NCBI GenBank assembly: GCA_001724995.1
Contig: MEFD01000013.1
Span: forward strand, 124,001-188,000
Source of the DNA: Rubrivivax sp. SCN 71-131
GTDB lineage: Bacteria; Pseudomonadota; Gammaproteobacteria; Burkholderiales; Burkholderiaceae_C
Direction of reading: 5' to 3'
DNA length: 64,000 nucleotides
The translations under genes were made by a program, and so were the position numbers. Shown here piece by piece: positions 42,157 to 64,000 of this stretch (its first letter is position 1; every line of letters starts with the position of its first letter). The notes beneath the pieces are model-generated. The model did not search any database and was not told where the DNA came from. It saw only the letters and a list, made by a program, of their open reading frames with translations.

Positions 42157-45100
42157 ATGATGCGGGAGTGGTGTTTTCGCGACGGGCTCGGCCCATTCGC
42201 CCGGCTGCTGGGGCTGCTGCTGGCCTTCGCCCTGCTCACGCTGTCGGGCCTGCCGGCCCGCGCCGGCACCGGCGAAGCCGGCCTGCCGCTGCTGCGCAAC
42301 TACGACACGGTGGGGCACGGCGGCAGCGTGCAGAACTGGGCTGTCGTGCAGGACCGCCGCGGCGTGATGTACTTCGGCAGCACCGACGACGGCGTGCTCG
42401 AGTTCGACGGCGCCAGCTGGCGCACGATCGCCACGCCCAACCGCTCGACCATCCGCTCGCTGGCCCTGGGCCGGGACGGCCGCATCTACGTCGGCGCCAT
42501 CGGCGAGATCGGCTACCTCGCGCCCGACGCGAACGGGGCCCTGCAGTTCGTCTCGCTGCTGGATCGGCTGCCGGCAGCGCAGCGCGACTTCGCCGACGTC
42601 TGGAGCACCTTCGCCACCGACGACGGCGTCTACTTCACGACATTCAAGCGGGTGATCCGCGTCCAGGGCGACAAGGTCCGGGTGTGGAACGCCAGCGGCG
42701 CCTTCCACATCGCACACATGGCGCGCGATCGACTCTACGTGCGCGAGGTCGGCCGCGGCCTGATGGAGCTCGTCGGCGATGCGCTGCGCCCGGTGCCCGG
42801 GGGCGAGCGCCTGGCCGACGAGAAGATCGCCGCCGTGTTCGCCTGGCCCGAAGCCGACGGCAGCGACCAGGGCGCGCTGCTCATCGGCACGCGCACGCAG
42901 GGCTTCTACCTCCTGGCCAACGGACACATGCGCCGCTGGCAGACGCAGGCCGACACCGAACTCAGGCATGGCCAGTTCTACAGCGCGACGCGGCTGGCCG
43001 ATGGGCGCCTGGCGGCGGCCACGCTGCTCGCCGGCGTGTTCCTGCTCGACCCCGAGGGTCGGCTCGCGGGCAGGATCGACAAGTCCACCGGACTGTCAGG
43101 ACCGACCGTGTACGCGCTCTGCCAGGACCGCCAGGGCGGCCTCTGGATGGCCCTGGACAAGGGCGTCGCACGCGCCGAAGTGGCGGCGCCGCTGACCCAT
43201 TTCAGTGCGCTCAACGGACTCGAAGGCAACACCATCGCCCTCCACCGCCACCGCGGCACGCTCTACGTCGGCACCACGCAGGGGCTGTTGCGGCTGCAGG
43301 CAGAAGCGGGGCGGGCCGCGCGTCTCATCCCGGTGCCGCAGATCACCGGGCAGGTCTGGGCCTTCCTGGACGTCGACGATGCGCTGCTCGTCGGCGGCAT
43401 GCACGGGGTGCATGAGCTGCGCGCAGGCCGCTGGCGGCTCGTGCGGCCGTCGGCGCAGAACACGGTCATGCTGCAGCGCTCAAAGCGGGACCCGAGCCGC
43501 GTCTACGTGGGCATGCTCGACGGCCTGGCGACGATGCGTGCCCAGGGCGCGCGCTGGATCGACGAAGGGCCGGTGGCGGGACTGGACGACGAGATCCGCA
43601 ACGTTTTTGAGCAGGAGAACGGCCGCCTCTGGCTAGGCACGATGTCCTCCGGGACGATCGACCTGCCGCTGCTGCGCGACGGGCGGCGCGACGCGCAGGC
43701 CGCACAGCACGCGCGCCGCTTCGGCGCCGGGCAAGGACTGCCCGCGGGGCCGGTCTTCATCCACCCGATCCGCGGCGAGCCGGCGTTCGCCACCAGCAGG
43801 GGCATCTTCCGCTTCGACGCCGCAGCCGCACGCTTTGCCGCCGACCCCCGCTTCGCGCAGCTCTTCGGCCGCGAGACACGACAGGCATTCCCGCTCGTCG
43901 AGGATGCGCGCGGCCGCGTCTGGATGTTCAGCCAGAACCTCGAGCGCAGCACCAAGGAAAGCGGCGCCGCCGTGCCCGCGAACGACCCGTCTGGCCGCTA
44001 CCGCTGGGAGCAAGGGCCGCTGGCCGGCATCGCGGGCACGGCACAAGCCACCGTCTTCGTCGAGGAAGACGCGGTCTGGATCGGTGGCGACGACGGCATC
44101 TTCCGCCTGGACACCGGCCGGCCGTCGCCAATCGAACCGCCTTTCCAGGCGCTCGTTCGCCGCGTCGCGGGCCGCGACGGCACGCTGCGCTTCGGCGGCG
44201 CGCGCGGCCACGCCGCCGCCGAGTTCGACGCCGATCACAACGCGCTGCGCTTCGAGTTCGCCGCGCCTGCCTTCGGCGCGCGGCCCAATCGCTTCCAGGT
44301 GCTGCTGCAGGGACTGGACCGCGACTGGAGTCCCCCGACCCGCGAGGCCTACCTCGATTACACCAACCTGCGCGAAGGCGATTACCGGTTCCGGGTGCGC
44401 GCGATCAGCCCGTACGGCCAGATCAGCGGCGAGGACAGCTGGGCGTTCCGCATCCTGCCGCCCTGGTACCGCACCTCGCTGGCCTACCTGGCCTACGCAC
44501 TGGCCGCGGGCCTGGCGGTGCTGGCGCTCGGGAGCTGGCGCTCGGCGGCGCTGCGCGCGCGCAACCGCCACCTCGCGCAACTCGTGGCCACGCAGACGCG
44601 GGAACTGTCCGAGGCCAACCGCGCGCTGCAGACGGCCAACGCCTCGCTGGCCGAGATCTCGCTCACCGATGCGCTCACCGGGTTGAAGAACCGCCGCTAC
44701 CTGGCCGAGCGCATCGCCGAGGACCTGGCCGTGCTGCGGCGATCGCACACGCAGGCGGTGATGCTGGCTCGCGGCGGCGCCTTCGACGACGACGCGCAAC
44801 TCACCTTCATCATGGTCGACATCGACCGCTTCAAGCAGATCAACGACCGGTACGGCCATGCCGCGGGCGACCGCGTGCTCGAGCAGTTCGGCGGCATCCT
44901 GCGCAGCATCTGCCGCGACACCGACACCGCCGTGCGCTGGGGCGGCGAGGAATTCCTGCTCGTCGCTCGGCACACCCCGGTCGAGTCAGGCATGGTGCTG
45001 GCCGAGCGCATCCGCATGCAGGTCGCCGCACACCCCTTCGTGCTCGACGACGGCCACGTGCTGCAGTGCAGCTGCTCGCTGGGCCTCGCCGGCTTCCCGC

Positions 45101-45339
45101 TCGACCCGGCGGCACCGGAGCGCACGCGCTGGGAGTTCTCGGTCAAGCTCGCCGACCAATGCCTCTACGAGGCCAAGCGCGCCGGGCGCAACACCTGGGT
45201 GGGCGTGCGCCCGACGGGCCAGGTGCCGCACGCGCACGTGCCGCCCCCCACCGAGCTGAGCGCGGCCGTCGCGGGCGGCTGGCTCGAACTGCTGCGCATG
45301 TCCCCGCTGTCGCCGCAGGCGGCGCCAGCGGCGGTCTGA
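42157..45339 (+). CDS. Ligand-binding beta-propeller (Reg_prop) diguanylate cyclase
   Basis: A 1060-aa membrane sensor. A signal peptide or N-terminal helix (residues 14-35) precedes two large periplasmic beta-propellers made of Reg_prop-type repeats (WAVVQDRRGVMYFGSTDDGV, WMALDKGVARAEV), a Y_Y_Y domain near 690-765, a membrane helix at about 772-792, a coiled linker and a C-terminal GGDEF domain. The active site is GGEEF at 929-933, and the inhibitory site RDTD lies five residues before it, so the enzyme should make c-di-GMP and be feedback-inhibited. The signal is unknown; Reg_prop sensors often bind sugars or polymers. It stands alone, diverging from the liu operon and converging with the cytochrome b-reductase gene. 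Confidence 0.9.
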   Translation: MMREWCFRDGLGPFARLLGLLLAFALLTLSGLPARAGTGEAGLPLLRNYDTVGHGGSVQNWAVVQDRRGVMYFGSTDDGVLEFDGASWRTIATPNRSTIRSLALGRDGRIYVGAIGEIGYLAPDANGALQFVSLLDRLPAAQRDFADVWSTFATDDGVYFTTFKRVIRVQGDKVRVWNASGAFHIAHMARDRLYVREVGRGLMELVGDALRPVPGGERLADEKIAAVFAWPEADGSDQGALLIGTRTQGFYLLANGHMRRWQTQADTELRHGQFYSATRLADGRLAAATLLAGVFLLDPEGRLAGRIDKSTGLSGPTVYALCQDRQGGLWMALDKGVARAEVAAPLTHFSALNGLEGNTIALHRHRGTLYVGTTQGLLRLQAEAGRAARLIPVPQITGQVWAFLDVDDALLVGGMHGVHELRAGRWRLVRPSAQNTVMLQRSKRDPSRVYVGMLDGLATMRAQGARWIDEGPVAGLDDEIRNVFEQENGRLWLGTMSSGTIDLPLLRDGRRDAQAAQHARRFGAGQGLPAGPVFIHPIRGEPAFATSRGIFRFDAAAARFAADPRFAQLFGRETRQAFPLVEDARGRVWMFSQNLERSTKESGAAVPANDPSGRYRWEQGPLAGIAGTAQATVFVEEDAVWIGGDDGIFRLDTGRPSPIEPPFQALVRRVAGRDGTLRFGGARGHAAAEFDADHNALRFEFAAPAFGARPNRFQVLLQGLDRDWSPPTREAYLDYTNLREGDYRFRVRAISPYGQISGEDSWAFRILPPWYRTSLAYLAYALAAGLAVLALGSWRSAALRARNRHLAQLVATQTRELSEANRALQTANASLAEISLTDALTGLKNRRYLAERIAEDLAVLRRSHTQAVMLARGGAFDDDAQLTFIMVDIDRFKQINDRYGHAAGDRVLEQFGGILRSICRDTDTAVRWGGEEFLLVARHTPVESGMVLAERIRMQVAAHPFVLDDGHVLQCSCSLGLAGFPLDPAAPERTRWEFSVKLADQCLYEAKRAGRNTWVGVRPTGQVPHAHVPPPTELSAAVAGGWLELLRMSPLSPQAAPAAV

Positions 45340-45375: not shown

Positions 45376-47349
45376 TCAGGACGCCGCGGGCGCCGTCGGC
45401 GCCGCCGCCGTACCGGCATCCGCCGCCGTGGCACGCGGGGTCGGCACGAAGGCGTCGGAGAAGCAGTACTGCTCGCCCAGGCCGTGCGCAAGAAAGTCCG
45501 GCACCGCCGCCTGCACCATGCGCACCGAGCCGCAGGCGTAGACCTCGTGCCCGCTGAGGTCGGGGTGATCCTCCAGCAGCGCCTGGTGCACGAAGCCGCG
45601 CCGTCCGCCCCAGACGTCGTCGGGGCCCAGGTCGGAGAGCACGGGCACGTAGCGGAACTGCGACTGCTCGGCCTGCCAGCGCGCGAGCAGGTCCTGCAGG
45701 TAGAGATCCGACTCCTTGCGCACCCCCCAGTACAGCGCGATCGGGCGTTGGACGCCGCGGCGGAAGGCGTCCTCGAGGATGCTCTTGATCGGCGCGAAGC
45801 CGGTGGCGCCCGCGACCATGAGGATCGGGCGCTCGCTGTCGTGCAGCGTGAAGCGGCCCAGCGGCCCCTCGAACTCGACCGTGTCGCCCTCCTTCATCTG
45901 CTCGAACACGTGCGTCGTGTAGCGCCCGCCGGGGACGAGGCGGATGTGCAGCTCGATCACGTCGCCGGCGGTGGACGGCGGCGCCGCGGTGTCGCGCGGC
46001 GCGGTGGCGAATGAGAACGCGCGCTTGGCCCCGTCCGCGAGCACGATGTTGATGTACTGCCCGGCCTTGTAGTCGATGTGCTGGCCGCTGGGCAGCTCGA
46101 GCCAGACGAGCATCAGGTCGGCTGACAGGCGCTGCATGCGCTGCACGCGCGCGCTGTAGCGCACGAGCGCCTGGACATCCTCGGCGGCAAGCGAGGCCAC
46201 GCCTTCGACCTCGATTTCCATGTCCTCGAGCGGCACCGCGCAGCACATCAGTGCCTGGCCGCGCGCGCGCATCGCCGCCGTCAGCGCGGCCTCCTGGTAG
46301 GGTCCGTGGTCGAAGCGGCCGTTGAGCACCGTGCATACGCACACGCCGCAGCCGCCGGAGCGGCAGTCGTAGGGCAGCGCCAGACCTGCGCGCAGGCCGG
46401 CCTCGAGCAGCGTCTCGCCGTGGCGCGCGCCGACGCGCGCCGGTCCGGGATGCATCGCCACCTGGCGCATCGTGTGCCCGTTGCGCTTGGGCGGCAGCCA
46501 GGGCATGAGCATCAGCACGAGCGTGCCGCCGATCACCACCGCCCACACCACGCCCAGCGGCCCGGACTGGATGAACGGGAACAGTGGCAGCAGGAACCAG
46601 TCCAGCGACAGCGTCGACGAGGCCGAGTGCAGTTCCGCCGGGCCCTGGCTGGCCACCGGAAGCGCCAGCGCCAGCACGACCAGCATGATGCCCATGGCCA
46701 GCGCGATCGGGCGCGGCGGCTGGGTCGTGGCCTTGGGCACGCGCTGCACGTGCACCCACATCAGCAGCAGCGTCACAAGCGGCACGCCGATATGGATGAA
46801 GACGAGCAGCGAGAACAGGCGGTCGCTGACGTGCTCGGGCAGGATGAAGTTGCGGATCAGCCGGCCGTCGAAGCCCGGCAGCCAGTCCAGCCACTCGAAG
46901 CTCGCCTGGGTCACGAACTGCGCCAGCCGGTCCCAGGGCAGCATGAAGCCGTTGATGCCGGCGATGTAGACCAGCCACAGCAGCACCACGCCGGTGACCC
47001 AGGACACCCAGCGAAAGCCGCGCAGCCGGTCGAAGGCGAAGTAGCGCAACATGTGCACGAGCATCGTCAGCACCATCGCGTCCGACGCGTAGCGGTGCAC
47101 CGCGCGCAGGATGCTGCCCAGGCCGAAGCCGCCGTGCGTGATCGCCTCGACCGAGCGGTAGGCGCCGCTGACACTGGTATCGAAGAAGGCGTAGAGCACG
47201 AGGCCCGTGGCGCTGACGACCCAGAACAGGAAGAAGGTGATCGGCCCGAGGTGGTAGAGCGGGTTCATGCGATCGCCGAAGGCGCGGTTGAACACCGCCT
47301 CGGCCGCCATGAAGATGCGGCGGATCAGCCGCTGCAGCAGTTCGCTCAT
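45376..47349 (-). CDS. Cytochrome b fused to [2Fe-2S] ferredoxin and FAD/NAD(P) reductase
   Basis: A 657-aa fusion. Residues 1-290 are a cytochrome b/b6-like membrane part with two pairs of histidines 14 apart (H85/H99 and H186/H200) for two b hemes. A plant-type [2Fe-2S] domain follows with C329, C334, C337 and C369 or C370. The rest is a ferredoxin-NADP reductase module: FAD-binding RAFSFATAP near 443 and NAD-binding GATGFAP at 514-520. It could pass electrons between NAD(P)H and the quinone pool. A similar cytochrome b/b6 fused to NAD(P) and flavin domains was noted in Accumulibacter. Its start overlaps the NorB/CcoN-like gene stop (ATGA). Domains are certain; direction of flow is not. Confidence 0.88.
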   Translation of the reverse strand: MSELLQRLIRRIFMAAEAVFNRAFGDRMNPLYHLGPITFFLFWVVSATGLVLYAFFDTSVSGAYRSVEAITHGGFGLGSILRAVHRYASDAMVLTMLVHMLRYFAFDRLRGFRWVSWVTGVVLLWLVYIAGINGFMLPWDRLAQFVTQASFEWLDWLPGFDGRLIRNFILPEHVSDRLFSLLVFIHIGVPLVTLLLMWVHVQRVPKATTQPPRPIALAMGIMLVVLALALPVASQGPAELHSASSTLSLDWFLLPLFPFIQSGPLGVVWAVVIGGTLVLMLMPWLPPKRNGHTMRQVAMHPGPARVGARHGETLLEAGLRAGLALPYDCRSGGCGVCVCTVLNGRFDHGPYQEAALTAAMRARGQALMCCAVPLEDMEIEVEGVASLAAEDVQALVRYSARVQRMQRLSADLMLVWLELPSGQHIDYKAGQYINIVLADGAKRAFSFATAPRDTAAPPSTAGDVIELHIRLVPGGRYTTHVFEQMKEGDTVEFEGPLGRFTLHDSERPILMVAGATGFAPIKSILEDAFRRGVQRPIALYWGVRKESDLYLQDLLARWQAEQSQFRYVPVLSDLGPDDVWGGRRGFVHQALLEDHPDLSGHEVYACGSVRMVQAAVPDFLAHGLGEQYCFSDAFVPTPRATAADAGTAAAPTAPAAS

Positions 47350-48833
47350 CGCGCCCCCTCGGTGCCCACGGCGCGCCCGGCGTCGTCCTTGTCGCGTCCG
47401 TCCCGGGGCGCCCGCATCGCGCGCAGCACGACGACGGCGAAGAGCAGGCCGCCGACGATCGCCAGCAGGCCGCCCAGGCCCATCAAGCCCATGCCGGCGA
47501 CTTCGCCGGTGCTGCGCAGCACCTGCTCGGACCCGGCCACCTTGCGCTGCACGCCGTAGCCGCCGGACCACACCAGGCCGATGATGTGCAGCAGTTGCCC
47601 GAGGCCGTAGAGCCAGGGCTGCAGCGTCGCCAGGCGCCCCGCCGGGGCACCGTAGCCGAGCTCGGGCAGCAGCCGGTAGACCACGCCCATCAGCGCCAGC
47701 GTGACGCCGACGATGCAGCCGTGGTAGTGCGCCGGGATCTTGACGTTGCTGCCGTGGATCGTCATGCCGATCAGGCCGCCGGCGACGAACAGCAGCATCG
47801 ACGCCAGCAGCGCCGCACGCAGCGGGCGCTGCACCGGGTCCAGCCGGCGCTGCGGCAGCAGCGCCACCAGCACGGCCAGCGCCAGCGGTGCGATCGCCAG
47901 GCCGCCGCCCAGGCGCATCGCCCAGGTGTGCAGATCACGGTGTTCGACCGAGCTCACATCGTGCATCAGGTAGGCCAGCGGCGTGACGAACACGCTCACC
48001 AGCGCAATCGCGAACAGCAGCAGCACCACGCGCGCGCTCAGCGGCACGCGGGCGCCGCAGGCGTGGGCCAGTGCCAGCCAGGAAACCAGCATGAGAAGGG
48101 TCCAGGTGAACTGCAGCGCGTGGCCGCCGCCCCAGTAGAGGATCTCGTAGTAGGCCTTGGACGGCAGATCCATCGGCACCACGGCCAGCGACCACGCGAA
48201 GGCCACCAGCGCCACGCCCGCCGCCACGGCGCTGGCGTGCAGGCCAAAGCGCAGCGCGCCGGTGCCGTCGACGGCGATGCCGACCTTCTCGGCCCGCGTC
48301 AGCGCCAGCAGCACGAGCAGCAGCGCCCCCGCGGCGAAGAGCCACAGCGCAGCGCGAAAGCCGTTGCTGTCGAGCATCGGGATGTAGTTGGCCATCACCG
48401 CCTCGCCGGGGTCGATGAATGCCGCGAGCGCCATGCCCAGCGCACCGAGGCCGCAGAGCACGAGCGAGGCGTACGCGACGCGCAGGCCCGCGTCAGACAT
48501 CGAGCGCAGGTTCAGGCTCCACAGCAGGCCGGCGATGGCCACGAACCAGACCAGCACCGAGAGGTCGACGTGCACCACCAGGGCAACGCGGAAGAAGTCG
48601 CCCGCGGGCAGCCAGGCGTTGACGCCAGGCGTGCGCGCCAGCACGAGCAGCACCGAGAACAGGCCCGAGCCGACCAGCGCGGCAAGCGCCAGCGCGAGCC
48701 AGGCGCGCGCGAGGTGGCGCCGTCCGGCGTCGACCGCCGGCAGCCGGTAGGCCGCGGGCGTCGAGGCCGTGAGCGGGCGTCCGGGCGCGCCGCGGCGGAT
48801 GCGGTCGTGCAGCGAAAGCGATTCGGAGTTCAT
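47346..48833 (-). CDS. Heme-copper oxidase superfamily subunit I-like protein (NorB/CcoN-like, atypical)
   Basis: A 495-aa membrane protein with about twelve helices. Likely ligands are H88 (HVDLSVLVWF), H238 (WGGGHALQFTW) and the pair H369/H371 in IPAHYHGCIVG. The +4 residue after H238, the place of the cross-linked Tyr in oxidases, is F242. In the helix VII position usually occupied by His-His it reads H291-D292 (LMHDVSS). No matching CuA or cytochrome c subunit is adjacent. It overlaps both neighbours by ATGA. It could be a NO reductase-like enzyme, an O2-reacting enzyme of new type, or a structural quinol-binding partner of the cytochrome b fusions. Confidence 0.8.
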   Translation of the reverse strand: MNSESLSLHDRIRRGAPGRPLTASTPAAYRLPAVDAGRRHLARAWLALALAALVGSGLFSVLLVLARTPGVNAWLPAGDFFRVALVVHVDLSVLVWFVAIAGLLWSLNLRSMSDAGLRVAYASLVLCGLGALGMALAAFIDPGEAVMANYIPMLDSNGFRAALWLFAAGALLLVLLALTRAEKVGIAVDGTGALRFGLHASAVAAGVALVAFAWSLAVVPMDLPSKAYYEILYWGGGHALQFTWTLLMLVSWLALAHACGARVPLSARVVLLLFAIALVSVFVTPLAYLMHDVSSVEHRDLHTWAMRLGGGLAIAPLALAVLVALLPQRRLDPVQRPLRAALLASMLLFVAGGLIGMTIHGSNVKIPAHYHGCIVGVTLALMGVVYRLLPELGYGAPAGRLATLQPWLYGLGQLLHIIGLVWSGGYGVQRKVAGSEQVLRSTGEVAGMGLMGLGGLLAIVGGLLFAVVVLRAMRAPRDGRDKDDAGRAVGTEGAR

Positions 48834-49381
48834 TGCAGCGTGATGCCGCCCTTCTCGGCGTCGAAGTCGATCACCAGCACCTGCCCGGCGGCGAGCTTGA
48901 CCGTGGCCTCGCGTTCATGCGTCTGGGCGCCCGGGCGGACATCGTCGTTGAGCCGCACGCGCAGGCGGTGCTCGCCGGCCGGCACGACCAGGCGCTCGTA
49001 GATCGAGGAGGCGCCGTCCTTGGAGAGTCCGGTGGGCGCCACGACGCGGCTGAGGACGCTGCTGCCGTCGAGTTCGACATCGACCGACAGCGGCGCGCGC
49101 TCGCGCGGGCAGTCCATCGGCGCGCGCATGTTGGGCGGCATCTTCGCCAGCTCTTCCGCGCTGCGCTTGCGGCATTCGCCCACCGGCTTGCCGACGCGGC
49201 TGATGCTGACCTTGATCTGTGCCTGGTCGGCACCCATCGGGTGGTACAGCGGCCACTGCGAGAAGACGCCAACGGCCAGCGCAAACGCCCCGTAGAGCAC
49301 GAACTGGCCGACCCAGCGCGCGGGGCCGGTGGGCGCTGCGGGGCGCGTCTTAGACACGATGGATGCGTTGGTCGGTTTCAT
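48830..49381 (-). CDS. 183-aa membrane-anchored periplasmic protein of unknown function
   Basis: Not recognised. One N-terminal membrane helix (about residues 24-42) is followed by a periplasmic part of mixed polar character with a Cys pair (C70 in GECRKRSAEEL and C91 in MDCPRER) and a beta-rich C-terminal half (VELDGSSVL, AGEHRLRVRLNDD). It resembles an anchor or accessory subunit more than FixH. The first 32 bases overlap the end of the cytochrome b-MvhD gene, and its stop overlaps the start of the heme-copper protein (ATGA), so all are co-translated. It may be a metal-delivery or assembly factor. Confidence 0.8.
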   Translation of the reverse strand: MKPTNASIVSKTRPAAPTGPARWVGQFVLYGAFALAVGVFSQWPLYHPMGADQAQIKVSISRVGKPVGECRKRSAEELAKMPPNMRAPMDCPRERAPLSVDVELDGSSVLSRVVAPTGLSKDGASSIYERLVVPAGEHRLRVRLNDDVRPGAQTHEREATVKLAAGQVLVIDFDAEKGGITLQ

Positions 49382-50915
49382 CGGGCTCGATTGTCATGGA
49401 CTGCACCCGTCGGCGCAGGGTTTCTACCGTACTCGCGACCTGGGATTCCTCCCCGGCGCCGGCGAAGACGAGCGCGACGCGCTCGGGCCGCACGTGGGCG
49501 CGCAGGTGCGGCTCGCGCGCCGCGGCCAGGCGTTCGGCGGTCCAGCGCCCGCCGAGGCGGAACTCGCAGCCGTCGAGGGCGCAGGGGGCGATGACCACGC
49601 CGGCCGCGCCGTCACGCAGCGCGTACTCGACGAAGGACGGCGGAAGCTGACCCGCGCACAGCAGGCGCAGGCGGCACAGATCGTCGCCCTGCAGCGCATC
49701 GAGGTCGGCGCCGTGGTCGCAGCCGAAGACGACCAGCGGCCGCTCCGCAGGGTGCGTCTCGAGCGCCTCACGCAGGTGCTCGCGCAGCGCATCGACGGGC
49801 AACTGCGGCATGTCGATGCCGGTGCGCAGATGCTCGCCGCGCCGAAACGGCGTCGACGACGGGCAGGCGCCGGCGCAGATGCCGCAGCCCACGCACAGGT
49901 CCGGGTCGACCACGGCAAGCTGGCGTCCGGGACGCTGGTTCGGGTGCGCGACCATCGTCACCGCGGCGTAGGGGCAGTCGACGAAGCAGCGCCTGCAGCC
50001 GTTGCAGTTGTCCGGATCGACGAGCGCGGTCGCCGCGCGCTGCGGCTGCGGCAGGAAGGGCAGCGCGAAGAGCAGCAGCATCGCACCCAGCACCAGCGCC
50101 CAGGTGAAGGCCGCGGAGGTGGCGTCGGTCAGCGGATGCAGCCACAGCAGCAGCCAGTCCAGGTGCAGCGACGCGGGAACGCGGTCGAGCGCGGCCGGCG
50201 CGTGGCTCGTCACCGGGCGCAGCAGGGCAAGCAGGGCAAGCGTCGCCGTCAGGCCGCGCACCAGCGGCCGCGGCGGCAACACCGCGACGTGGCTCAGGCG
50301 CTGGATGTGGAACCACAGCCCGAACAGCAGCAGCAGCGGCACGCCGACGTGCACGAAGATGAAAAGCGAAAAGAGGCGATCGCCCACCGCCGCTGCGGAG
50401 AGGAAGTTGCGCGCCAGTGGCGCCGCGAGCAGCGGCAAGGCGTCCAGCCACTCGGCGGTGGAGAGGGCCGAATACTGCGCGAGCTCGTCCCAGATCAGCC
50501 AGAAGCCGCCGATGGCGCTGACGAAGACGAAGGCCAGCAGCGGCACGCCGGTGAGCCAGTGAAAGCGGCGTACGCCGCGCTCGTGGCCATGCAGCCACTC
50601 GCGCAGGATGTGCAGCAGCAGCACGATCATCAGCAGATCGGCTGCATAGCGATGCACGCCGCGCAGCAGCCGGCCCAGGCCGAGCGGCACCCGTGCCAGG
50701 CCTTCGATCGAGCGATAGGCGCCCTCGACCGAGGTGTCGAAGAGGGCGAACAGGATGGTGCCGCTGGCCGCCAGCAGGCCGAACGCCAGCAGGCCGATCG
50801 ATCCCAGGTGCCGCAGGGGGTTGCTGCCCCTCCCGAGCAGGCTGTCGAGCCGAAGCTCGACCGCCTGCCATGCGCTCAGGCCGTACTGCCGGATACCGCG
50901 GGAGGCAGGCTGCAT
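49350..50915 (-). CDS. Cytochrome b fused to two [4Fe-4S] clusters and an MvhD-like domain
   Basis: A 521-aa fusion. The N-terminal cytochrome b/b6-like part has His pairs H88/H102 and H189/H203. It is followed by a two-cluster ferredoxin (C304, C307, C310, C314 and C341, C344, C347, C351). The C-terminal 130 residues, with C399, C414/C420, C445 and C450 (VVFGCDHGAD, LLCAGQLPPSFVEYALRDG, IAPCALDGCEF), look like MvhD, the [2Fe-2S] subunit that links hydrogenases to heterodisulfide reductases. Such a fusion could join the quinone pool to a low-potential donor or thiol redox couple. The chosen ATG at 50915 overlaps the SCO gene by 40 bases; 50957 is also possible. Confidence 0.82.
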   Translation of the reverse strand: MQPASRGIRQYGLSAWQAVELRLDSLLGRGSNPLRHLGSIGLLAFGLLAASGTILFALFDTSVEGAYRSIEGLARVPLGLGRLLRGVHRYAADLLMIVLLLHILREWLHGHERGVRRFHWLTGVPLLAFVFVSAIGGFWLIWDELAQYSALSTAEWLDALPLLAAPLARNFLSAAAVGDRLFSLFIFVHVGVPLLLLFGLWFHIQRLSHVAVLPPRPLVRGLTATLALLALLRPVTSHAPAALDRVPASLHLDWLLLWLHPLTDATSAAFTWALVLGAMLLLFALPFLPQPQRAATALVDPDNCNGCRRCFVDCPYAAVTMVAHPNQRPGRQLAVVDPDLCVGCGICAGACPSSTPFRRGEHLRTGIDMPQLPVDALREHLREALETHPAERPLVVFGCDHGADLDALQGDDLCRLRLLCAGQLPPSFVEYALRDGAAGVVIAPCALDGCEFRLGGRWTAERLAAAREPHLRAHVRPERVALVFAGAGEESQVASTVETLRRRVQSMTIEPDETDQRIHRV

Positions 50916-51799
50916 GCCGGGCGCTCGCTGCGGCGCTGACGGCGTTGCCGATGCCATTCGAGCAGGAAGTAGGCGCCAACCGTGAGGAAGAACAGCAGAC
51001 CGCCGACGATCACCAGGATCAGCTTGGTGTCGTAACGGTATTCGCCGGTCTCGGCGTCGTAGACGGTGCACAGGATGCGCACGCGCTCGACGAGGGCCGC
51101 GAAGGCGTTGGGCGGCGGCGGCGCGTGGCGCAGCAGCAATTCGCGCAAGGGCACGCCGAGCTGGTCGGCGCGCAGCTTGTTGCCCAGCACCTGGGTGTGG
51201 ATGCGGCCCTTGGCGTCGACGACGGTGACGCCCAGCAGGTGGTCGAATCCCGCGGGCGTGGCGACGTAGCTGAAGCCGAAGGCGCGGGTCAGCTCCGGCA
51301 CCTGCGGGCGCGTCGGGCTGAGGAAATTCCAGTTGCGGTGCGCGATGCGGTGTTGCGCGGCGAACGAACGCATCGCCTCGGGCGAGTCGAAGGGCTGATT
51401 GAAGCCGATGCTGACGACGTTGAACTGGCTCTCGCCGAGCATGCGATCCAGACCGCGGACCGCCTCGTAGAGCTCACGCGTCTGCGCCGGGCAGATCTGG
51501 AAACAGCCGGTGTAGATGAAGCTGACGAGCAGCGGCTTGCCGCGGTAGTCGGAGAGGCGTACCAGCTTGCCGCTGCGGTCCCGCAACTCCATCTCGGGCA
51601 CCACGCGCCCGATGGCCTCCTGAGACAGGCGCAGCGCCTCGTGCTCGTCGAGCGAAGGCACCTGGCCGGGCTGGCGCGGGGCGGCGCCCGGGGTGTCCTG
51701 AGCGGGCGCAAGGCCGGCGGCAAGCGCCAGCAGCGAAGCCCCGAGAAAGCGCGTCAGGCCGGCACGGCGGCGGTTCGGCGCATCAGCGCAGTGTGGCAT
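50876..51799 (-). CDS. senC: SCO1/SenC-family copper chaperone with C-terminal membrane anchor
   Basis: A 307-aa thioredoxin-fold protein. It has a signal peptide ending near PAQ, copper ligands C99 and C103 in YTGCFQICP and H187 in GFDHLLG, and an extra C-terminal membrane helix (about 262-284). SCO proteins deliver copper to the CuA site of subunit II. The usual CPxxC is here CFQIC. Its start overlaps the cyoE stop by 17 bases. Presence of a CuA subunit upstream explains its need; sNOR clusters of ammonia oxidisers also carry a senC gene. Confidence 0.9.
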   Translation of the reverse strand: MPHCADAPNRRRAGLTRFLGASLLALAAGLAPAQDTPGAAPRQPGQVPSLDEHEALRLSQEAIGRVVPEMELRDRSGKLVRLSDYRGKPLLVSFIYTGCFQICPAQTRELYEAVRGLDRMLGESQFNVVSIGFNQPFDSPEAMRSFAAQHRIAHRNWNFLSPTRPQVPELTRAFGFSYVATPAGFDHLLGVTVVDAKGRIHTQVLGNKLRADQLGVPLRELLLRHAPPPPNAFAALVERVRILCTVYDAETGEYRYDTKLILVIVGGLLFFLTVGAYFLLEWHRQRRQRRSERPACSLPPAVSGSTA

Positions 51800-52712
51800 C
51801 GAGCAGCACGCCGACGATGAGGGCGCTGAGCTGGACCATGGAGGCGAAGAAGGCCGACATCGCCGTCTCGCGCCTCGGATCACGCGCCAGCACGTGCGTC
51901 TTGCGCAGGAAATGCGCCCCCCCCAGCACCGCGCCGACGGCGTAGGCCCAGCCCGCCCCGAAGGCCATCGGCGCCAGCGACACCGCGACGAGCGCGACCG
52001 CGTTGGCGTGCACGATGCGCGCGGCTCGCGCGCGACCCACGACGACCGGCAGCATCGGCACGCCGGCCGCGGCGTACTGGTCCTCGTTGGCGATGGCCAG
52101 GCTCCAGAAGTGGGGCGGCGTCCAGAGAAACAGCACCAGGGCCAGCAGCAGGGCCTGCGGACCGATCGCGGGGTCGACCGCTGCGGCACCGGCCAGCACG
52201 GCAAAGCTTCCGGCCAGGCCACCGATGACGATGTTCCAGGGCGTGCGGCGCTTGAGGCCCACCGTGTAGACGATGGCGTAGGTCAGCGCCCCCAGCAGCA
52301 CGAAGACGGCCGCGACGACGTTCACCCACCAGGCCGCTGCAGCGACCGCGAGGACCAGCAGGCCGACGATGATCGCCATCCAGCCGCCGCTGCGCGGCAA
52401 GGCCCCGCTGGCGAAGGCGCGCCCGCGGGTGCGCTTCATCAGCCGGTCGCTGTCGGCCTCGACGTACTGGTTGAAGGCGCCGGCGCTGGCCGACGCCACC
52501 AGCACCGACAGCGCCAGGATGACGGCCTGCGCCGCGCTTACCGATCCCTCGGGCACGATGGCCAGGCCCGCGATCGCAGTGAGCATGATCAGCACGCCGA
52601 TGCGCAGCTTGAACACGCCCAGCACCGTCCGCCAGCGCGCCCCGGCCGGCTGCGCCGCGTCTGCGGCGCCGGCGGCGAATGCGGGGGCGGCAAGCGGGTC
52701 GGGTCGATTCAT
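51783..52712 (-). CDS. cyoE: Protoheme IX farnesyltransferase (heme O synthase)
   Basis: A 309-aa membrane prenyltransferase with about eight or nine helices. It has the DxxxD motif as FNQYVEADSDRLMKRTRGR and the second polar loop WTPPHFWSLAIANEDQYAAAGVPMLP. It converts heme B to heme O. With the heme A synthase homologues nearby it could supply heme A to the heme-copper subunit upstream. GGAGG is only two bases from the ATG. Confidence 0.95.
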   Translation of the reverse strand: MNRPDPLAAPAFAAGAADAAQPAGARWRTVLGVFKLRIGVLIMLTAIAGLAIVPEGSVSAAQAVILALSVLVASASAGAFNQYVEADSDRLMKRTRGRAFASGALPRSGGWMAIIVGLLVLAVAAAAWWVNVVAAVFVLLGALTYAIVYTVGLKRRTPWNIVIGGLAGSFAVLAGAAAVDPAIGPQALLLALVLFLWTPPHFWSLAIANEDQYAAAGVPMLPVVVGRARAARIVHANAVALVAVSLAPMAFGAGWAYAVGAVLGGAHFLRKTHVLARDPRRETAMSAFFASMVQLSALIVGVLLDATLR

Positions 52713-52758: not shown

Positions 52759-54456
52759 TCAGCTCATGCCCCACAGCGTGGAGAGGTACTTCCAGTTGAT
52801 GAAGTAGTAGAGCACGAAGGCGATCAGGAACACCATGGCCAGGGCGAAAGTCCCCGGTGCCGCGAAGCCCATCGAGCCGTAGGTCTGCGCGGCCACGGTC
52901 GGCGCGGCGCGCGGCACCGGCGTGGTCACGGCGCTGAGCTTGCCGTCATCGAGCTTCCTGCCCCACAGCAGCGAGCCGACGGTGACGTAGACGAAGGCGA
53001 TGCCGCCGAAGATCGCCGCCAGGCCGCCGATGCCCACGAGGCCCATCATCAGGTAGGCGGCGCCCGGCCACTCGTAGGCCATTGCCGCACCCTCGAAGGC
53101 CATGTCCCAGTGGCGGCGCGAGACGCCCAGGGTGCCCGCACCCATCATCACGAGACAGAAGAAGTACATCGAGAAGCCGAACAGGTAGATCTGCCACAGC
53201 GCGAGCTTGGGCGCGATCATCTCGCGCTTGAAGAGCACGGGGATGAGGTAGTAGGTCAGCGCCATGAAGGTCAGCGTCGTGCCCACCACCACCGTGGCGT
53301 GGAAGTGCCCGGGGACGTAGATCGTGTTGTGGATGATCAGGTTGAGCTGCTCGGTGCCCATCATCACGCCGGTGATGCCGCCGAGGAAGCCGAAGCCGAT
53401 GATCGAGATGAACACGCCGGCGAAGGTCGGGTTGCCCCAGGGCGCCTTGCGCAGCCACTCGAACAGGCCCTTGGTGTAGCCTTTCTGGCGCTGCGCGACT
53501 TCCATTGCGCCCGGAACCGTCAGGCCGTGCAGCATCGAGGCCAGCACCGCGGCGTACATGAAGTAGCTGGTGTTGACGACCTTCCACGCCGTGCCCACGC
53601 CCGGGTCGGCGAGCAGGTGGTGCGCGCTGGCCAGTTGCAGGAACAGGATGTAGAGCAGGAAGGCCATGCGGCTGACGCGCTCGCTCATCGGCTTGGCGCC
53701 GAGCGCGATCGCAGCCACCAGGTACCAGACCGAGACGTGCGTGGCGACGTTGATCTGCTGCGAGGAGTGACCCAGCGCCCACCACACGGTGCGGTAGATC
53801 AGCGGATCGACGTTCATCAGGCCCAGCGACATCAGCCAGGCCGGGATGATGATGATGGCGCCCGAGAGCAGCGTGAAGACGGCGATGATCGCCGCGGTCA
53901 GCGCGCCGAAGGTGACGAGCGGAACCGAGCCCTCGTAGGTCTTCTCGCGCTTGGCGACGACGAGCGTGCCGAAGAAGACAAAGCAGCCGATGAGCGCGCC
54001 GACGGCGAACAGGATGATGCCCAGATAGAACATCGGCTCGGCCATCATCGGCACGTAGCTGGTCATCATGACGCTGGACGCACCGCGGAAGACCGCGACG
54101 TTGTTCATGATCGAGCCGACGACCATGAGCACGAAGCCGAGCCAGGCGATCTTGGGCGTCGCGATGCGACATCTGAGCAAGGTCGACGAGCAGAAGTGCA
54201 GCACCGCGATCTCGAAGAAGATGATCCAGAAGATCAGCATGTCGAGGCCGTGGGCCGTGAGCACCATGTAGAAGGTGTCGGCCTCGAGCCAGCGGATCGC
54301 CGGCCAGCGCGTGAGCACGACGCCGATGGCCAGGATGCCGCCGATGGCCAGCCAGACGACGGCGACGAAGGCGTGCGCCTTGATCAGCTTTTCCGCCTGG
54401 GCCTCGAACTGCAGGCCCGAGCGCGGGCAGGTACGGTAGGTGGTTGAAGCACTCAT
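52759..54456 (-). CDS. B-family heme-copper reductase subunit I lacking the active-site tyrosine (sNOR/NorY-like candidate)
   Basis: A 565-aa subunit I with about 13 helices. Ligand histidines are H69, H230, H279/H280 (SAHHLLADPG), H384 and H386 (VPGHFHATV), close to Thermus ba3 oxidase numbering (72, 233, 282, 283, 384, 386). The residue equal to the cross-linked Tyr (ba3 Y237) is Q234 in LGHSSQQINV. Oxygen reductases need that Tyr; its loss is typical of NO reductases in this superfamily, including the sNOR group with a CuA subunit. The adjacent CuA subunit, senC and nirS favour NO reduction. Two heme A synthase homologues nearby are the main argument for an oxidase. It is 10 bases from subunit II. 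Confidence 0.85.
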   Translation of the reverse strand: MSASTTYRTCPRSGLQFEAQAEKLIKAHAFVAVVWLAIGGILAIGVVLTRWPAIRWLEADTFYMVLTAHGLDMLIFWIIFFEIAVLHFCSSTLLRCRIATPKIAWLGFVLMVVGSIMNNVAVFRGASSVMMTSYVPMMAEPMFYLGIILFAVGALIGCFVFFGTLVVAKREKTYEGSVPLVTFGALTAAIIAVFTLLSGAIIIIPAWLMSLGLMNVDPLIYRTVWWALGHSSQQINVATHVSVWYLVAAIALGAKPMSERVSRMAFLLYILFLQLASAHHLLADPGVGTAWKVVNTSYFMYAAVLASMLHGLTVPGAMEVAQRQKGYTKGLFEWLRKAPWGNPTFAGVFISIIGFGFLGGITGVMMGTEQLNLIIHNTIYVPGHFHATVVVGTTLTFMALTYYLIPVLFKREMIAPKLALWQIYLFGFSMYFFCLVMMGAGTLGVSRRHWDMAFEGAAMAYEWPGAAYLMMGLVGIGGLAAIFGGIAFVYVTVGSLLWGRKLDDGKLSAVTTPVPRAAPTVAAQTYGSMGFAAPGTFALAMVFLIAFVLYYFINWKYLSTLWGMS

Positions 54457-54466
54457 CTTGTTCTCC

Positions 54467-55006
54467 TCACTTCACGTACAGGCGGCTGACCATGCGGTGG
54501 TGGCCGATGCCGCAGAACTCGTTGCAGACGAGTCCGTACGTCCCCGATTGGTTGGGCGTCACGGTGATCACGTGCTCGAAGCCCGGCACCAACTGGATGT
54601 TGATGTTCGCCGGCTGCAGCGAGAAGCCGTGGTTGTAGTCCATCGCCGTCAGGTGCAGGCGGTAGGTCTTGCCCTTCTCCAGCTCGAGGATGGGATAGAA
54701 GTTCCAGAGGCGACCGAGCAGGTAGACGTCCGAGCCCGCGGGCGGCGCGACGACCGGGATCTCCTCCTCGGTCTCCTTGCGCACGGTGTACTTGTCGACC
54801 ATGTCCTGCACCTTCACCATGAACTGGTCGGGGCGGGTGCGGTAGGTCTCGGTGGACAGGTTCTGGGTGCCCCAGATGTGCCAGCCGACCATCATGAAGA
54901 AGAGGATCAGACACCAGATCACCGCGATCGTGATCCACGTGCCCTCGATACGGTCGATCGGGTGCTTGTACCAAAGCCGTTCGGCGGGCGGAAGAATGGC
55001 GCTCAT
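54467..55006 (-). CDS. CuA-containing subunit II of the B-family heme-copper reductase
   Basis: A 179-aa subunit II with one N-terminal membrane helix (about 22-44) and a cupredoxin domain. CuA ligands are intact: H126 (MDYNHGFSL), C161, C165, H169 and M172 in CNEFCGIGHHRM. Spacing matches ba3 subunit II exactly. It receives electrons from cytochrome c or a cupredoxin and passes them to subunit I. It precedes subunit I by 10 bases and follows a 53-aa subunit. Confidence 0.92.
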   Translation of the reverse strand: MSAILPPAERLWYKHPIDRIEGTWITIAVIWCLILFFMMVGWHIWGTQNLSTETYRTRPDQFMVKVQDMVDKYTVRKETEEEIPVVAPPAGSDVYLLGRLWNFYPILELEKGKTYRLHLTAMDYNHGFSLQPANINIQLVPGFEHVITVTPNQSGTYGLVCNEFCGIGHHRMVSRLYVK

Positions 55007-55030: not shown

Positions 55031-55192
55031 TTATTTGGTGACGGGCAGAAGAAGGATCTCGACGACGCCCCACAGGTTGTAGACAACCATCGGGATCAGC
55101 ACGCCCAGAAAGAGCAGGATGAACGGGCTGTCGAGCAGCTGTTGCATCATGGGCACGGGTTCGTTCGGATCGTCGTGATGGGGTGTGGACAT
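55031..55192 (-). CDS. 53-aa single-helix subunit at the head of the heme-copper operon
   Basis: Starts MSTPHHDDPNEPVPMMQQLL and has one membrane helix (about 23-47) and a short tail. GGAG is 5 bases before the ATG. B-family oxidases of the ba3 type have a comparable tiny subunit IIa, so it is probably a structural subunit. It is the first gene of the operon running to the cytochrome b-reductase gene, with an FNR/Dnr-like box 90 bases upstream. Confidence 0.8.
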   Translation of the reverse strand: MSTPHHDDPNEPVPMMQQLLDSPFILLFLGVLIPMVVYNLWGVVEILLLPVTK

Positions 55193-55262
55193 GGCCGCTC
55201 CTTCGGTCGTACGTACGGGCAGGCGGGCCCGAGCGCCCTCCTCGCTGCGTTGCATTCTTTGA

Positions 55263-55466: not shown

Positions 55467-56408
55467 ATGCCGTCGACGATGCCCGCAGATCCCTCTCTTG
55501 AACGTCGGCGTCGCGCGGTACGCGCGCTCGCCTGGGTCGTGGCCGCGCTGATGGTGGCGACGATCGTGCTCAGCGCGTACATGCGGCTGGTGCAGTCGGG
55601 CCTGGGCTGCGCACCCTGGCCGACGTGCTTCGCGCAGGGCGCGCCCACCGACGCGGGCGCGCCCGCCGCGGCGGGCGTTGCGCTGGCGCGGCTGCTGCAT
55701 CGGATCGTCGCCTCCGTCGTGCTGGTGCTGGTGATCCTGCTCGTGCTCGCGACGCTGACGATGCGCCCGCGTCTGCGGATCGAAGGCCGCGCCGCGATGG
55801 TGCTGCTGCTGCTGACGCTTGCGCTGGCAGCGCTGGGCGTGACGATGCGCGGCTCGACCTTGCCCGCCGTGGTGCTCGGCAACCTCACGGGCGGCTTCCT
55901 CATGCTGGCCGTGGCGACGCGCCTGGCCTGGCCGGCGGCCGCGCCCGCCGGCGCGCTCGCGACGCTGGCGCGCGTGTCGCTGCTCATGCTGCTGGCGCAG
56001 ATCGCACTCGGCGCGATGCTGAGCGCCACGCGCACGGCGTGGGGGTGCGACGGATTCGCTTCATGCCTGCAGCAGGCAGCCGCGCTCGATTGGAGCTGGC
56101 GACTGCTCGACCCCTGGAGCAACGGCAGCCTGCCGCAGGCCGCGACCGCGACCGCGGCCGCACGCGGCGCCTGGCTGCAGCTGCTGCATCGCAGTGCAGC
56201 GCTGGCCCTGCTGCCGTTGATCGGGGCGCTGGCGCTCGTGCTGTGGCGGGTGCGGCGGCGTGGCGGGGCCGCGGTGCTTGCCGCGTTGCTGGTCGCGCAG
56301 CTGCTCGTTGGCGGCCTGCTGCCAGCGTCCGGCTGGCCGCTGGCGCAGGTGCTCGTGCACAACCTCAGCGCGGCGCTGCTGCTGGCCCTGCTGCTGCGCC
56401 TGGCCTGA
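55467..56408 (+). CDS. ctaA: Heme A synthase family protein (CtaA/COX15-like), first copy
   Basis: A 313-aa membrane protein with about eight helices. Family marks are YMRLVQSGLGCAPWPTCF, LLHRIVASVVLV, TMRGSTLPAVVLGNLTGG and WLQLLHRSAALALLPL with paired histidines. Heme A synthase oxidises the methyl group of heme O. Two in-frame ATGs (55467 and 55479) are possible. It diverges from the heme-copper operon across 274 bases and converges with a second homologue, overlapping it by 44 bases. This copy has a short N-terminus and variable periplasmic loops. Confidence 0.85.
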   Translation: MPSTMPADPSLERRRRAVRALAWVVAALMVATIVLSAYMRLVQSGLGCAPWPTCFAQGAPTDAGAPAAAGVALARLLHRIVASVVLVLVILLVLATLTMRPRLRIEGRAAMVLLLLTLALAALGVTMRGSTLPAVVLGNLTGGFLMLAVATRLAWPAAAPAGALATLARVSLLMLLAQIALGAMLSATRTAWGCDGFASCLQQAAALDWSWRLLDPWSNGSLPQAATATAAARGAWLQLLHRSAALALLPLIGALALVLWRVRRRGGAAVLAALLVAQLLVGGLLPASGWPLAQVLVHNLSAALLLALLLRLA

Positions 56409-57537: not shown

Positions 57538-57659
57538 GCGGCGCAAGACTAACCGCTCGGCGACGGCCGGCGAATCCGGCACACTCGGCGCATGAACGAA
57601 GAAGCCACCGGCCCGCAGGGCTCCATGCAAGCCGCGGCGTTCCCGCCGGGGAACGCCCG

Positions 57660-59061: not shown

Positions 59062-59775
59062 ATGCAAGAACCGGTCCGCCCCGTCAGCGGCTTCAACCTG
59101 CCTCGATACCTGTCGATGCAGCCGCTGTTCCAGGAGATGGACGCGCTCGAACTCGACCGCCTCGCGCAGGGCTGCACGCTGCACCGCTTCGCGCGCGGGG
59201 AGATGGTCTTTCGCGTCGGTGAACCCTGCAACGCCTTTCACGTCGCGGTCACCGGCCAGGTCAAGCTCTACGTCGTCTCGCCGGCCGGCGCGGAGAAGGT
59301 GATCGAGATCGTCGGCCCGGGGCAGAGCTTCGCCGAGGCGCTGATGTTCACCGGGCGGCCCTACATCCTCAACGCCCAGGCGCTGGCCGACTCGCTCGTG
59401 CTGTCGATCGGCAAGGCCACCGTGGTCGGCGAGATCGAGCGCGAGCCTCGCTTCGCCATGCGCATGCTGGCCGGCATCTCGCGCCGGATGCACGGCTTGA
59501 TCCACGACGTCGAGAGCTACGCGCTGCACAGCGGCATCCAGCGGGTCATCGGCTACCTGCTGCGCGACCAGGTCGCGGAGGACTGCGTCAGCGGCGAGGT
59601 TCTGACGGTCTCGCTGCCGGTGAGCAAGGCAACGATCGCCTCGCGGCTGTCGCTCACCCCCGAGTACTTCTCGCGCGTGCTGCACGAATTGGAGGCCGCG
59701 GGCCTGGTGCGCATCGACAGGCGCGAAGTGCACATTCTCGACGTGCTCCGGCTCTCGACCTACCAGCCGCGCTGA
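59062..59775 (+). CDS. Crp/Fnr-family regulator of the Dnr/Nnr type
   Basis: A 237-aa protein with a cyclic-nucleotide-like sensor domain (about 20-140), a long dimerisation helix (LAGISRRMHGLIHDVESYAL) and a C-terminal helix-turn-helix (LPVSKATIASRLSLTPEYFSRVL). The N-terminal cysteines that hold the [4Fe-4S] cluster of Fnr are absent, so it is probably a Dnr/Nnr-type sensor of nitric oxide. The recognition helix keeps the Glu and Ser/Arg pattern (TPEYFSR) for TTGAT half-sites. Boxes of that type stand before this gene, nirS and the heme-copper operon. Its 3' end overlaps the convergent d1-like gene frame. Confidence 0.9.
   Translation: MQEPVRPVSGFNLPRYLSMQPLFQEMDALELDRLAQGCTLHRFARGEMVFRVGEPCNAFHVAVTGQVKLYVVSPAGAEKVIEIVGPGQSFAEALMFTGRPYILNAQALADSLVLSIGKATVVGEIEREPRFAMRMLAGISRRMHGLIHDVESYALHSGIQRVIGYLLRDQVAEDCVSGEVLTVSLPVSKATIASRLSLTPEYFSRVLHELEAAGLVRIDRREVHILDVLRLSTYQPR

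Positions 59776-60678: not shown

Positions 60679-64000
<3,322 letters not shown>

Follow-up and report, generated by a model that had tools for sequence, protein, structure and literature searches.

A probable glutamine-type nitric oxide reductase operon with two cytochrome b fusions, near nirS in Rubrivivax sp. SCN 71-131

The window, as the whole stretch of DNA analysed here is called, covers 64,000 nucleotides of Rubrivivax sp. SCN 71-131 (contig MEFD01000013.1, positions 124,001 to 188,000). Its minus strand carries an operon with two proteins that each join a membrane cytochrome b to a different electron-input module. The same operon encodes a heme-copper enzyme with a glutamine where oxygen reductases have a cross-linked tyrosine, and a nirS gene lies nearby. 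On balance, this is probably the operon of a glutamine-type nitric oxide (NO) reductase resembling the class known as eNOR, and the region of the fusions its electron-input end.

In order of transcription, the genes of the operon are:

55031..55192, minus strand: a small protein with a single transmembrane (TM) segment, 53 amino acids from an internal ATG inside the open reading frame 55031-55255
54467..55006, minus strand: suII, CuA subunit II (COX2, PF00116, 24.3 bits against a cut-off of 22)
52759..54456, minus strand: suI, B-family heme-copper subunit I, most likely eNOR-like (COX1, E 1e-61; alignment to ba3 structures; HxxQQ motif)
51783..52712, minus strand: ctaB/cyoE, heme O synthase of the UbiA family (PF01040, E 2e-51)
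50876..51820, minus strand: SCO, copper chaperone family (SCO1-SenC, E 3e-12)
49350..50957, minus strand: P1, cytochrome b with two [4Fe-4S] clusters and an MvhD/FlpD domain (Pfam and NCBIfam matches)
48830..49381, minus strand: h183, N-terminal TM segment and beta-sandwich (AlphaFold model, predicted local distance difference test (pLDDT) 89)
47346..48833, minus strand: HCO495, heme-copper fold (PF00115, E 1.6e-13; AlphaFold; Foldseek)
45376..47349, minus strand: P2, cytochrome b with a [2Fe-2S]-FAD-NAD(P) reductase (Pfam matches)

P1 overlaps the 183-residue h183 by 32 nucleotides, h183 overlaps the 495-residue HCO495 by 4, and HCO495 overlaps P2 by another 4. These overlaps are compatible with translational coupling, and fit the co-translation that the initial annotation of this DNA had claimed. 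It had also described an operon of four genes. The four do share one operon, but it is longer, and extends upstream of P1 to about 55192.

The small protein is similar in position and size to subunit IIa of ba3 oxidases. Matches to it stand directly before suII in all nine wider-phylum loci with suI, and also in Defluviimonas, Thermomicrobium and two Accumulibacter loci. The ctaB counterpart in the Defluviimonas locus is annotated as heme o synthase. For SCO, the CuA site is presumably the target.

When the eight larger proteins of the operon served as queries in a translated search, the same gene set appeared in 24 loci of relatives. The arrangement is not due to chance, since the eight-gene order is found again in dozens of loci. 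Three samples underlie the counts below. Order-level counts are from 200 genomes of the window's order. The named loci are the 80 best-scoring among at least 402 relatives matched by a P1 query; they are skewed to the window's kin, and two of them (L060 and L061) look like near-copies. In a phylum sample, 34 of 398 genomes have P1. Of these, 32 belong to families other than that of the window, and loci were read in 20 of them, in stretches of 4 to 20 kilobases (kb).

When suI is aligned to ba3 oxidase structures, Q234 falls on the position of the cross-linked Tyr of oxygen reductases. Every copy aligned there has Gln: 68/68 named, 15/15 order, 9/9 phylum and 4/4 plasmid copies, while four further named matches stop short of position 234. 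The equivalent residue is Tyr in all eight lower-scoring B-family copies fetched from 68 plasmid records. The CuB and heme histidines of suI (H230, H279, H280, H384 and H386) are kept in 66/66 named, 15/15 order and 9/9 phylum copies that align over all five positions; two named copies covered only part. The CuA ligands of suII (H126, C161, E163, C165, H169 and M172) give the same counts, 66/66, 15/15 and 9/9.

Two suI copies on Thermus thermophilus plasmids (L057 9983-11668 and L058 9983-11665) have Lys at position 386, reading GHFK for GHFH. The low-spin heme site may differ there, because the Lys replaces the second low-spin heme His.

Gln at this Tyr position is used as a mark of eNOR in PMC8756737, which gives sNOR and the Bacillus CuA-NOR an N, not a Q. 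The same paper says that genes for eNOR-type enzymes frequently carry a cytochrome c oxidase annotation. PMC11388526 states that eNOR has been biochemically characterised. The pair suI/suII has Gln for Tyr, three CuB histidines plus the heme histidines, and a cupredoxin-type subunit II. Judging by this published signature, and by a complementarity with the established reductases cNOR and qNOR that is described next, suI/suII is most likely an eNOR-like NO reductase.

Two further genes of the window matter for this:

60679..62370, minus strand: nirS, cytochrome cd1 nitrite reductase (Cytochrom_D1, E 2e-148, with an N-terminal cytochrome c domain)
59062..59775, plus strand: a CRP/FNR-family regulator near nirS (cNMP_binding, HTH_Crp_2), a candidate regulator of the cluster

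Among the 200 genomes of the order, P1 is found in 17, P2 in 19, both in 16 and either in 20. These 20 are called cluster genomes. They include all 19 genomes with suI; the twentieth (G153) is an assembly in 580 contigs. The NirS family is found in 19/20 cluster genomes, against 36/180 others (Fisher test, p 2.6e-11), in a search with PF02239 at E<=1e-40 that also takes in NirS relatives. NirK is found in 0/20 against 21/180, and NosZ in 4/20 against 25/180. A Sinorhizobium meliloti NorB query matches in three cluster genomes, and a Cupriavidus necator qNOR query in four.

Both cNOR and qNOR are lacking in 12 of the 19 NirS genomes with the cluster, and in 2 of the 36 without it (p 7.5e-6, uncorrected for relatedness). 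The lists of positive genomes behind both Fisher tests were compiled by hand. In the window's genome, NirS was found, and NirK, NorB, qNOR and NosZ were not found at the thresholds used. A Gln-type enzyme with a CuA subunit in the operon, with nirS nearby, points to NO reduction. The initial annotation had proposed a redox system with two input modules and a link to denitrification. Both points hold, but the Gln-type enzyme with its CuA subunit, and nirS nearby, had been missed.

There are further pointers. A box resembling the FNR/DNR site TTGAYNNNNRTCAA, with at most one mismatch to the consensus, lies 239-372 bases before suII in 52/84 loci, compared with 19/420 random pieces and 9/420 shuffles. 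One Thermus plasmid suI has nirS about 3 kb away; the other has a multicopper oxidase gene nearby.

The annotation of suI copies reads differently, as a cbb3-type or b(o/a)3-type cytochrome c oxidase subunit I. Together with the Accumulibacter literature, this would make the operon a microaerobic ba3-type oxygen reductase with an extra NADH input. CuB, heme ligands and CuA are indeed all complete, and PMC6446978 counts ba3, along with aa3 and cbb3, among the oxidases of every Accumulibacter genome. Against oxygen as the substrate, all aligned copies have Gln where the eight other B-family copies have Tyr, and the locus is strongly linked to NirS and to the absence of a canonical NO reductase. 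Transcripts of the "ba3" operon in Accumulibacter UW-1, which the same source describes as high in anaerobic stages and lower after aeration, speak against it too. It is quite unlikely that the enzyme is an oxygen reductase.

Accumulibacter deserves a closer look. It is central to phosphorus removal from wastewater, and is a named example of those NirS bacteria that appear to make toxic NO without any means of removing it. According to PMC6446978, norZ is present in few Accumulibacter genomes and norBC in none, and the ba3 operon is predicted to be FNR-regulated. All ten Accumulibacter genomes searched have suI (in pieces in one of them), and the loci include P2. A qNOR was found in three; the other seven gave no qNOR-type match at E 1e-20, many of them being drafts and cNOR not having been searched for separately.

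We infer that cbaA of the published ba3 operon is suI. If so, the published "ba3 oxidase" of Accumulibacter may be the missing NO reductase. Should suI indeed reduce NO, the missing activity would lie in an enzyme that is annotated as a ba3 oxygen oxidase, and predictions of N2O output would change. The literature search found no paper that pairs the name eNOR with Accumulibacter.

The initial annotation was right that the two cytochrome b fusions with different input modules exist, as Pfam and NCBIfam domain matches confirm. P1 starts with a cytochrome b of four TM segments and two hemes, followed by two TM segments with a DW motif, two [4Fe-4S] clusters and an MvhD/FlpD [2Fe-2S] domain. P2 has the same membrane part, and then [2Fe-2S], FAD and NAD(P) domains. 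The TM positions come from a hydropathy scan, with some placed by hand from the cytochrome b fold.

In Pfam, P1 matches Cytochrome_B (E 7e-18) and Fer4-type families at the two clusters. The supposed MvhD-like region passes a profile search, with FlpD (PF02662, the MvhD family) at 47.5 bits against a cut-off of 22.3. The best NCBIfam match of P1 is to the ferredoxin and MvhD C-terminus of HdrA2 (E 3.5e-25, 88 bits), which is far under the cut-off for that whole protein. P2 matches Cytochrome_B (E 4e-18), Fer2, FAD_binding_6 and NAD_binding_1.

Each protein was said to keep four heme histidines, and this is confirmed. In P2 they are H85/H99/H186/H200, invariant in 19 sequences. In P1 they are H102/H116/H203/H217 (14 more than in the earlier numbering), invariant in 18 sequences; P1 starts at 50957, and 50915 is an internal Met. 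The eight dicluster Cys and the MvhD Cys (C413, C434, C459 and C464) are also invariant in the 18. All 18 key P1 residues checked, heme histidines and MvhD Cys among them, are also conserved in another 22 P1 proteins, which come from 20 loci beyond the order. In a quick cytochrome b domain tree, from an unfinished search with 18 rows unlabelled and no usable outgroup, all 27 P2 rows fall to the same side of a branch that has support 99.

Both families conserve a cd1-like G[FY]xLxWD motif, and both have an invariant Asp-Trp (DW), resembling PEWY, in the loop between TM5 and TM6. In bc1 cytochrome b, PEWY sits in the matching loop, and the cd1 motif is part of the Qo region. Since the two motifs resemble this region, it is plausible that P1 and P2 bind quinone.

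The same motifs leave some room for electrons travelling the other way. Quinol would then be oxidised at a bc1-like site of P1/P2 on the positive (p) side of the membrane, and electrons would go via the b hemes to NAD(P)+ in P2 or to a ferredoxin-like acceptor in P1. The driving force would be the membrane potential, or a high-potential NirS/NO reductase branch. A role once proposed for an Accumulibacter fusion is reportedly close to this. Flow from the p-side to the negative (n) side is uphill against the membrane potential by established bioenergetics, no Rieske protein or cytochrome c1 was found in a scan confined to the operon proteins, and the association observed is with nirS and an NO-reductase-like enzyme. 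PMC2289847 does mention a "novel cytochrome" possibly aiding anaerobic reducing power in bacteria of enhanced biological phosphorus removal. All told, reverse flow is unlikely.

Flavin-based bifurcation and heterodisulfide exchange were also considered, and rejected. No flavin domain was found in P1 with Pfam or NCBIfam, and the FAD of P2 is of the ferredoxin-reductase type only. No hydrogenase, HdrA or other Hdr-type gene turned up among the operon proteins scanned. The bifurcation or thiol exchange of the initial annotation is therefore unsupported.

HCO495 had been called heme-copper-like. This holds for the fold: the AlphaFold model (pLDDT 88.7) is that of a heme-copper subunit I, and the best PDB match with Foldseek is the cbb3 oxidase 3mk7 (E 7e-8). 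It does not hold for the copper site, as there is no CuB His pair. A sequence-level search of the PDB gave no match, even with a profile. Against the suI family, the HCO495 profile scores a probability of 99.8 (E 5e-29), and because of this match HCO495 is most likely a diverged paralog of suI. Single NorB and B-family oxidase sequences give weak probabilities of 7.5 and 34, but a single sequence is a poorer profile partner than the ten-row suI alignment.

Four histidines (H88, H238, H369 and H371) are invariant across 58 homologs of HCO495; H88, H369 and H371 are heme ligands. In the profile alignment H238 is matched to the CuB His of suI and Q241 to its first Gln, and the CuB pair falls at A287/Y288. 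The register of that pair is 287/288 by profile, 289/290 by eye and 290/291 by a weak single-sequence alignment; no copy has two His at any of the three. More broadly, none of the 58 homologs has an adjacent His pair at 286-292, and single His are seen at 291 in 25, at 288 in two and at 292 in one. HCO495 also has no subunit II of its own. A function as an ordinary oxidase or NO reductase is unlikely, and with the CuB pair lost the protein is probably not a catalytic oxidase.

Searches of Pfam, NCBIfam, PDB profiles (E<=0.001) and Foldseek returned nothing reliable for h183. Its beta-sandwich domain is presumably periplasmic. It has two invariant Cys, C70 and C91, and no clear cofactor site. 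h183 stands next to a cytochrome b fusion almost without exception: it is found in 50/50 long named loci and in 76/80 overall; of the other four, three stop at P1 and one (L137) shows none. It is present twice around the cytochrome b fusions in 4/24 loci (L035, L037, L046 and L048).

The 80 named loci are mostly from Betaproteobacteria or unresolved Proteobacteria, and include ten from Accumulibacter and four from Gammaproteobacteria groups (L066, L084, L110 and L114). Fifty are longer than 20.5 kb. Within these fifty, h183 and P2 occur in 50, suI, suII and SCO in 48, ctaB in 45 and HCO495 in 44.

Further out, the set becomes smaller. A Defluviimonas plasmid has suII-suI-cyoE-SCO-P1-h183, with P2 and HCO495 not in the stretch read. 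In the 20 wider-phylum loci, h183 adjoins P1 in all 20, suI is present in nine, HCO495 in two, and a NirS of at least 51 percent identity in 11. Of these 20 loci of Pseudomonadota, 17 have nirS and/or suI; the three without either are short contigs, 5 to 11 kb in length. A genome-wide search for suI was positive in 28 of 33 P1 genomes, the window's own not counted, and in 16/16 of the good-quality ones.

P2 was seen in none of the 20 stretches, where no genome-wide search for it was made; the phylum scan scored at most three candidates per genome, so absence of P2 cannot be read from it. The expectation that the two fusions go together thus holds as the usual case in the order (16/20), but does not look general. 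These counts suggest that across the phylum the Gln-type enzyme has P1-h183 as its basic partner, and that P2 and HCO495 were added later.

Two observations from these loci stand by themselves. On the Defluviimonas plasmid, the next gene (L033 16080-16484) is annotated as hemerythrin family, a family that binds oxygen or NO. L158 and L159, both from small genomes of family f79, have two tandem P1-type genes, then h183 and HCO495, and P2 is absent from the stretch read.

In part of the phylum P1-h183 adjoins nirS, and suI is either on a different contig or at a distance of more than 10 kb. It could be, then, that P1/h183, and P2 with it, serve NirS itself, or the maturation or repair of d1 heme or a metal centre, by supplying reductant from cytoplasm to periplasm under nitrosative stress. 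A protein with two invariant Cys and no clear cofactor site, such as h183, would suit this. In the window's order P1 and suI usually lie in one run, however, and a chain of two hemes together with a dicluster suggests electron transfer in bulk. A dedicated maturation role is very unlikely.

This leads back to NO reduction fed by the fusions. NirS would make NO, and suI/suII would reduce it to N2O, with CtaB and SCO maturing the heme and copper of suI/suII, as their families suggest. The redox domains of P1 and P2 would be on the cytoplasmic side, given the six TM segments. In P2, NAD(P)H would pass electrons to FAD and [2Fe-2S], and from there to the b hemes. In P1, a low-potential donor would do so through the MvhD [2Fe-2S] and the two [4Fe-4S] clusters. 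The two b hemes would span the membrane and deliver to quinone, or to an acceptor on the periplasmic side that serves suII and/or NirS. h183 may be the periplasmic-side partner of P1/P2, going by co-occurrence and its TM segment, and HCO495 a heme-bearing relay or an NO-binding or regulatory subunit, not a catalytic oxidase. Entry from the cytoplasm is preferred because reverse flow opposes the membrane potential, and because the genes accompany the NO-producing NirS.

Several observations weigh against this picture. The CuA subunit suggests a cytochrome c donor, yet none of the operon proteins could be recognised as a carrier between b heme and CuA, and no recognised cofactor motif was found in h183. 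No P1 or P2 was seen in the 21 kb read around the Thermus and Thermomicrobium relatives of suI, so the fusions appear dispensable for the reductase as such. A cNOR or qNOR is also present in 7 of the 19 NirS-positive cluster genomes, and one cluster genome (G100) has no NirS match. The window's own best FNR-like box has two mismatches. The ba3 transcripts of Accumulibacter UW-LDO-IC changed little, according to PMC6446978.

A more elaborate arrangement is conceivable, if rather unlikely. P1/h183 and P2/h183 might assemble with suI/suII and NirS into a supercomplex for denitrification without need of bc1. Electrons would bifurcate at a quinone site on the p-side, one branch leading to NO or nitrite reduction and the other, via the b hemes, to NAD(P)+ in P2 or to a carrier of low potential in P1. 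HCO495, without a normal copper site, would be a relay or NO sensor. Run in reverse, such a complex would let NO reduction draw directly, across the membrane, on NAD(P)H and a ferredoxin-like donor in the cytoplasm.

Some neighbours of the operon should be recorded. Adjoining it are two convergent, overlapping genes of the COX15/CtaA (heme A synthase) family, at 55467-56408 (plus) and 56365-57630 (minus). One is far more divergent (E 1.5e-20 against 1.6e-73), and the divergent one adjoins the locus in several relatives too. At the 3' end, on the opposite strand, a gene at 42157-45339 (plus) encodes a large sensor that combines two-component propeller repeats with Y_Y_Y and GGDEF domains. Divergent from nirS, an open reading frame at 62494-63999 (plus) resembles a TonB-dependent receptor, judged by eye.

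Parts of this system are already known. The Gln-type NO reductase is one, and a cytochrome b-flavin fusion reported from Accumulibacter is another. The defining eNOR paper appeared in PNAS in 2024. In the literature searched, which does not extend to that main eNOR paper, neither fusion is tied to a Gln-type NO reductase. With eNOR the locus shares the Gln at the cross-linked Tyr position, a cupredoxin-type subunit II beside subunit I, and the B-family core. By these features its kinship with eNOR is putative. It differs in that its operon also holds the cytochrome b fusions, h183 and a paralog lacking CuB.

The fold, bis-His hemes and cd1- and PEWY-like motifs of P1 and P2 are common to the cytochrome b of bc1 and b6f. 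The models of the cytochrome b proteins ExtP and ExtQ of selenite/tellurite operons match as well (ExtP against P1 E 2e-24 and against P2 E 3e-28, ExtQ against P1 E 2.5e-5, all below cut-off). Unlike all of these, P1 and P2 have fused cytoplasmic redox domains, and the operon proteins scanned include neither a Rieske protein nor a cytochrome c1.

The C-terminus of P1 resembles the ferredoxin and MvhD end of HdrA2, known with MvhD (FlpD) from methanogens. P1 differs in that it has no HdrA flavin core and is joined to a membrane cytochrome b, and no HdrBC or hydrogenase was seen among the operon proteins. Titles and the starts of abstracts on fusions of MvhD, cytochrome b and [4Fe-4S] parts concern archaea, Chloroflexi and a sulfate reducer. 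In QmoABC, which acts in sulfate reduction, MvhD-type and heme b parts meet the quinone pool. P1 has both kinds of part in common with it, but in QmoABC they are separate subunits with an HdrA flavin.

For P2, the closest comparison is a cytochrome b/b6-NAD(P)-flavin fusion reported from Accumulibacter in 2006. By its description that fusion has a P2-like architecture. P2 as found here is mainly from Betaproteobacteria, and its company of P1, h183 and an eNOR-like enzyme suggests a role in nitrogen-oxide metabolism. If suI is indeed an NO reductase, the cytochrome b fusions would be a new route of electrons to NO reduction, and the "novel cytochrome" of 2006 would gain a testable role.

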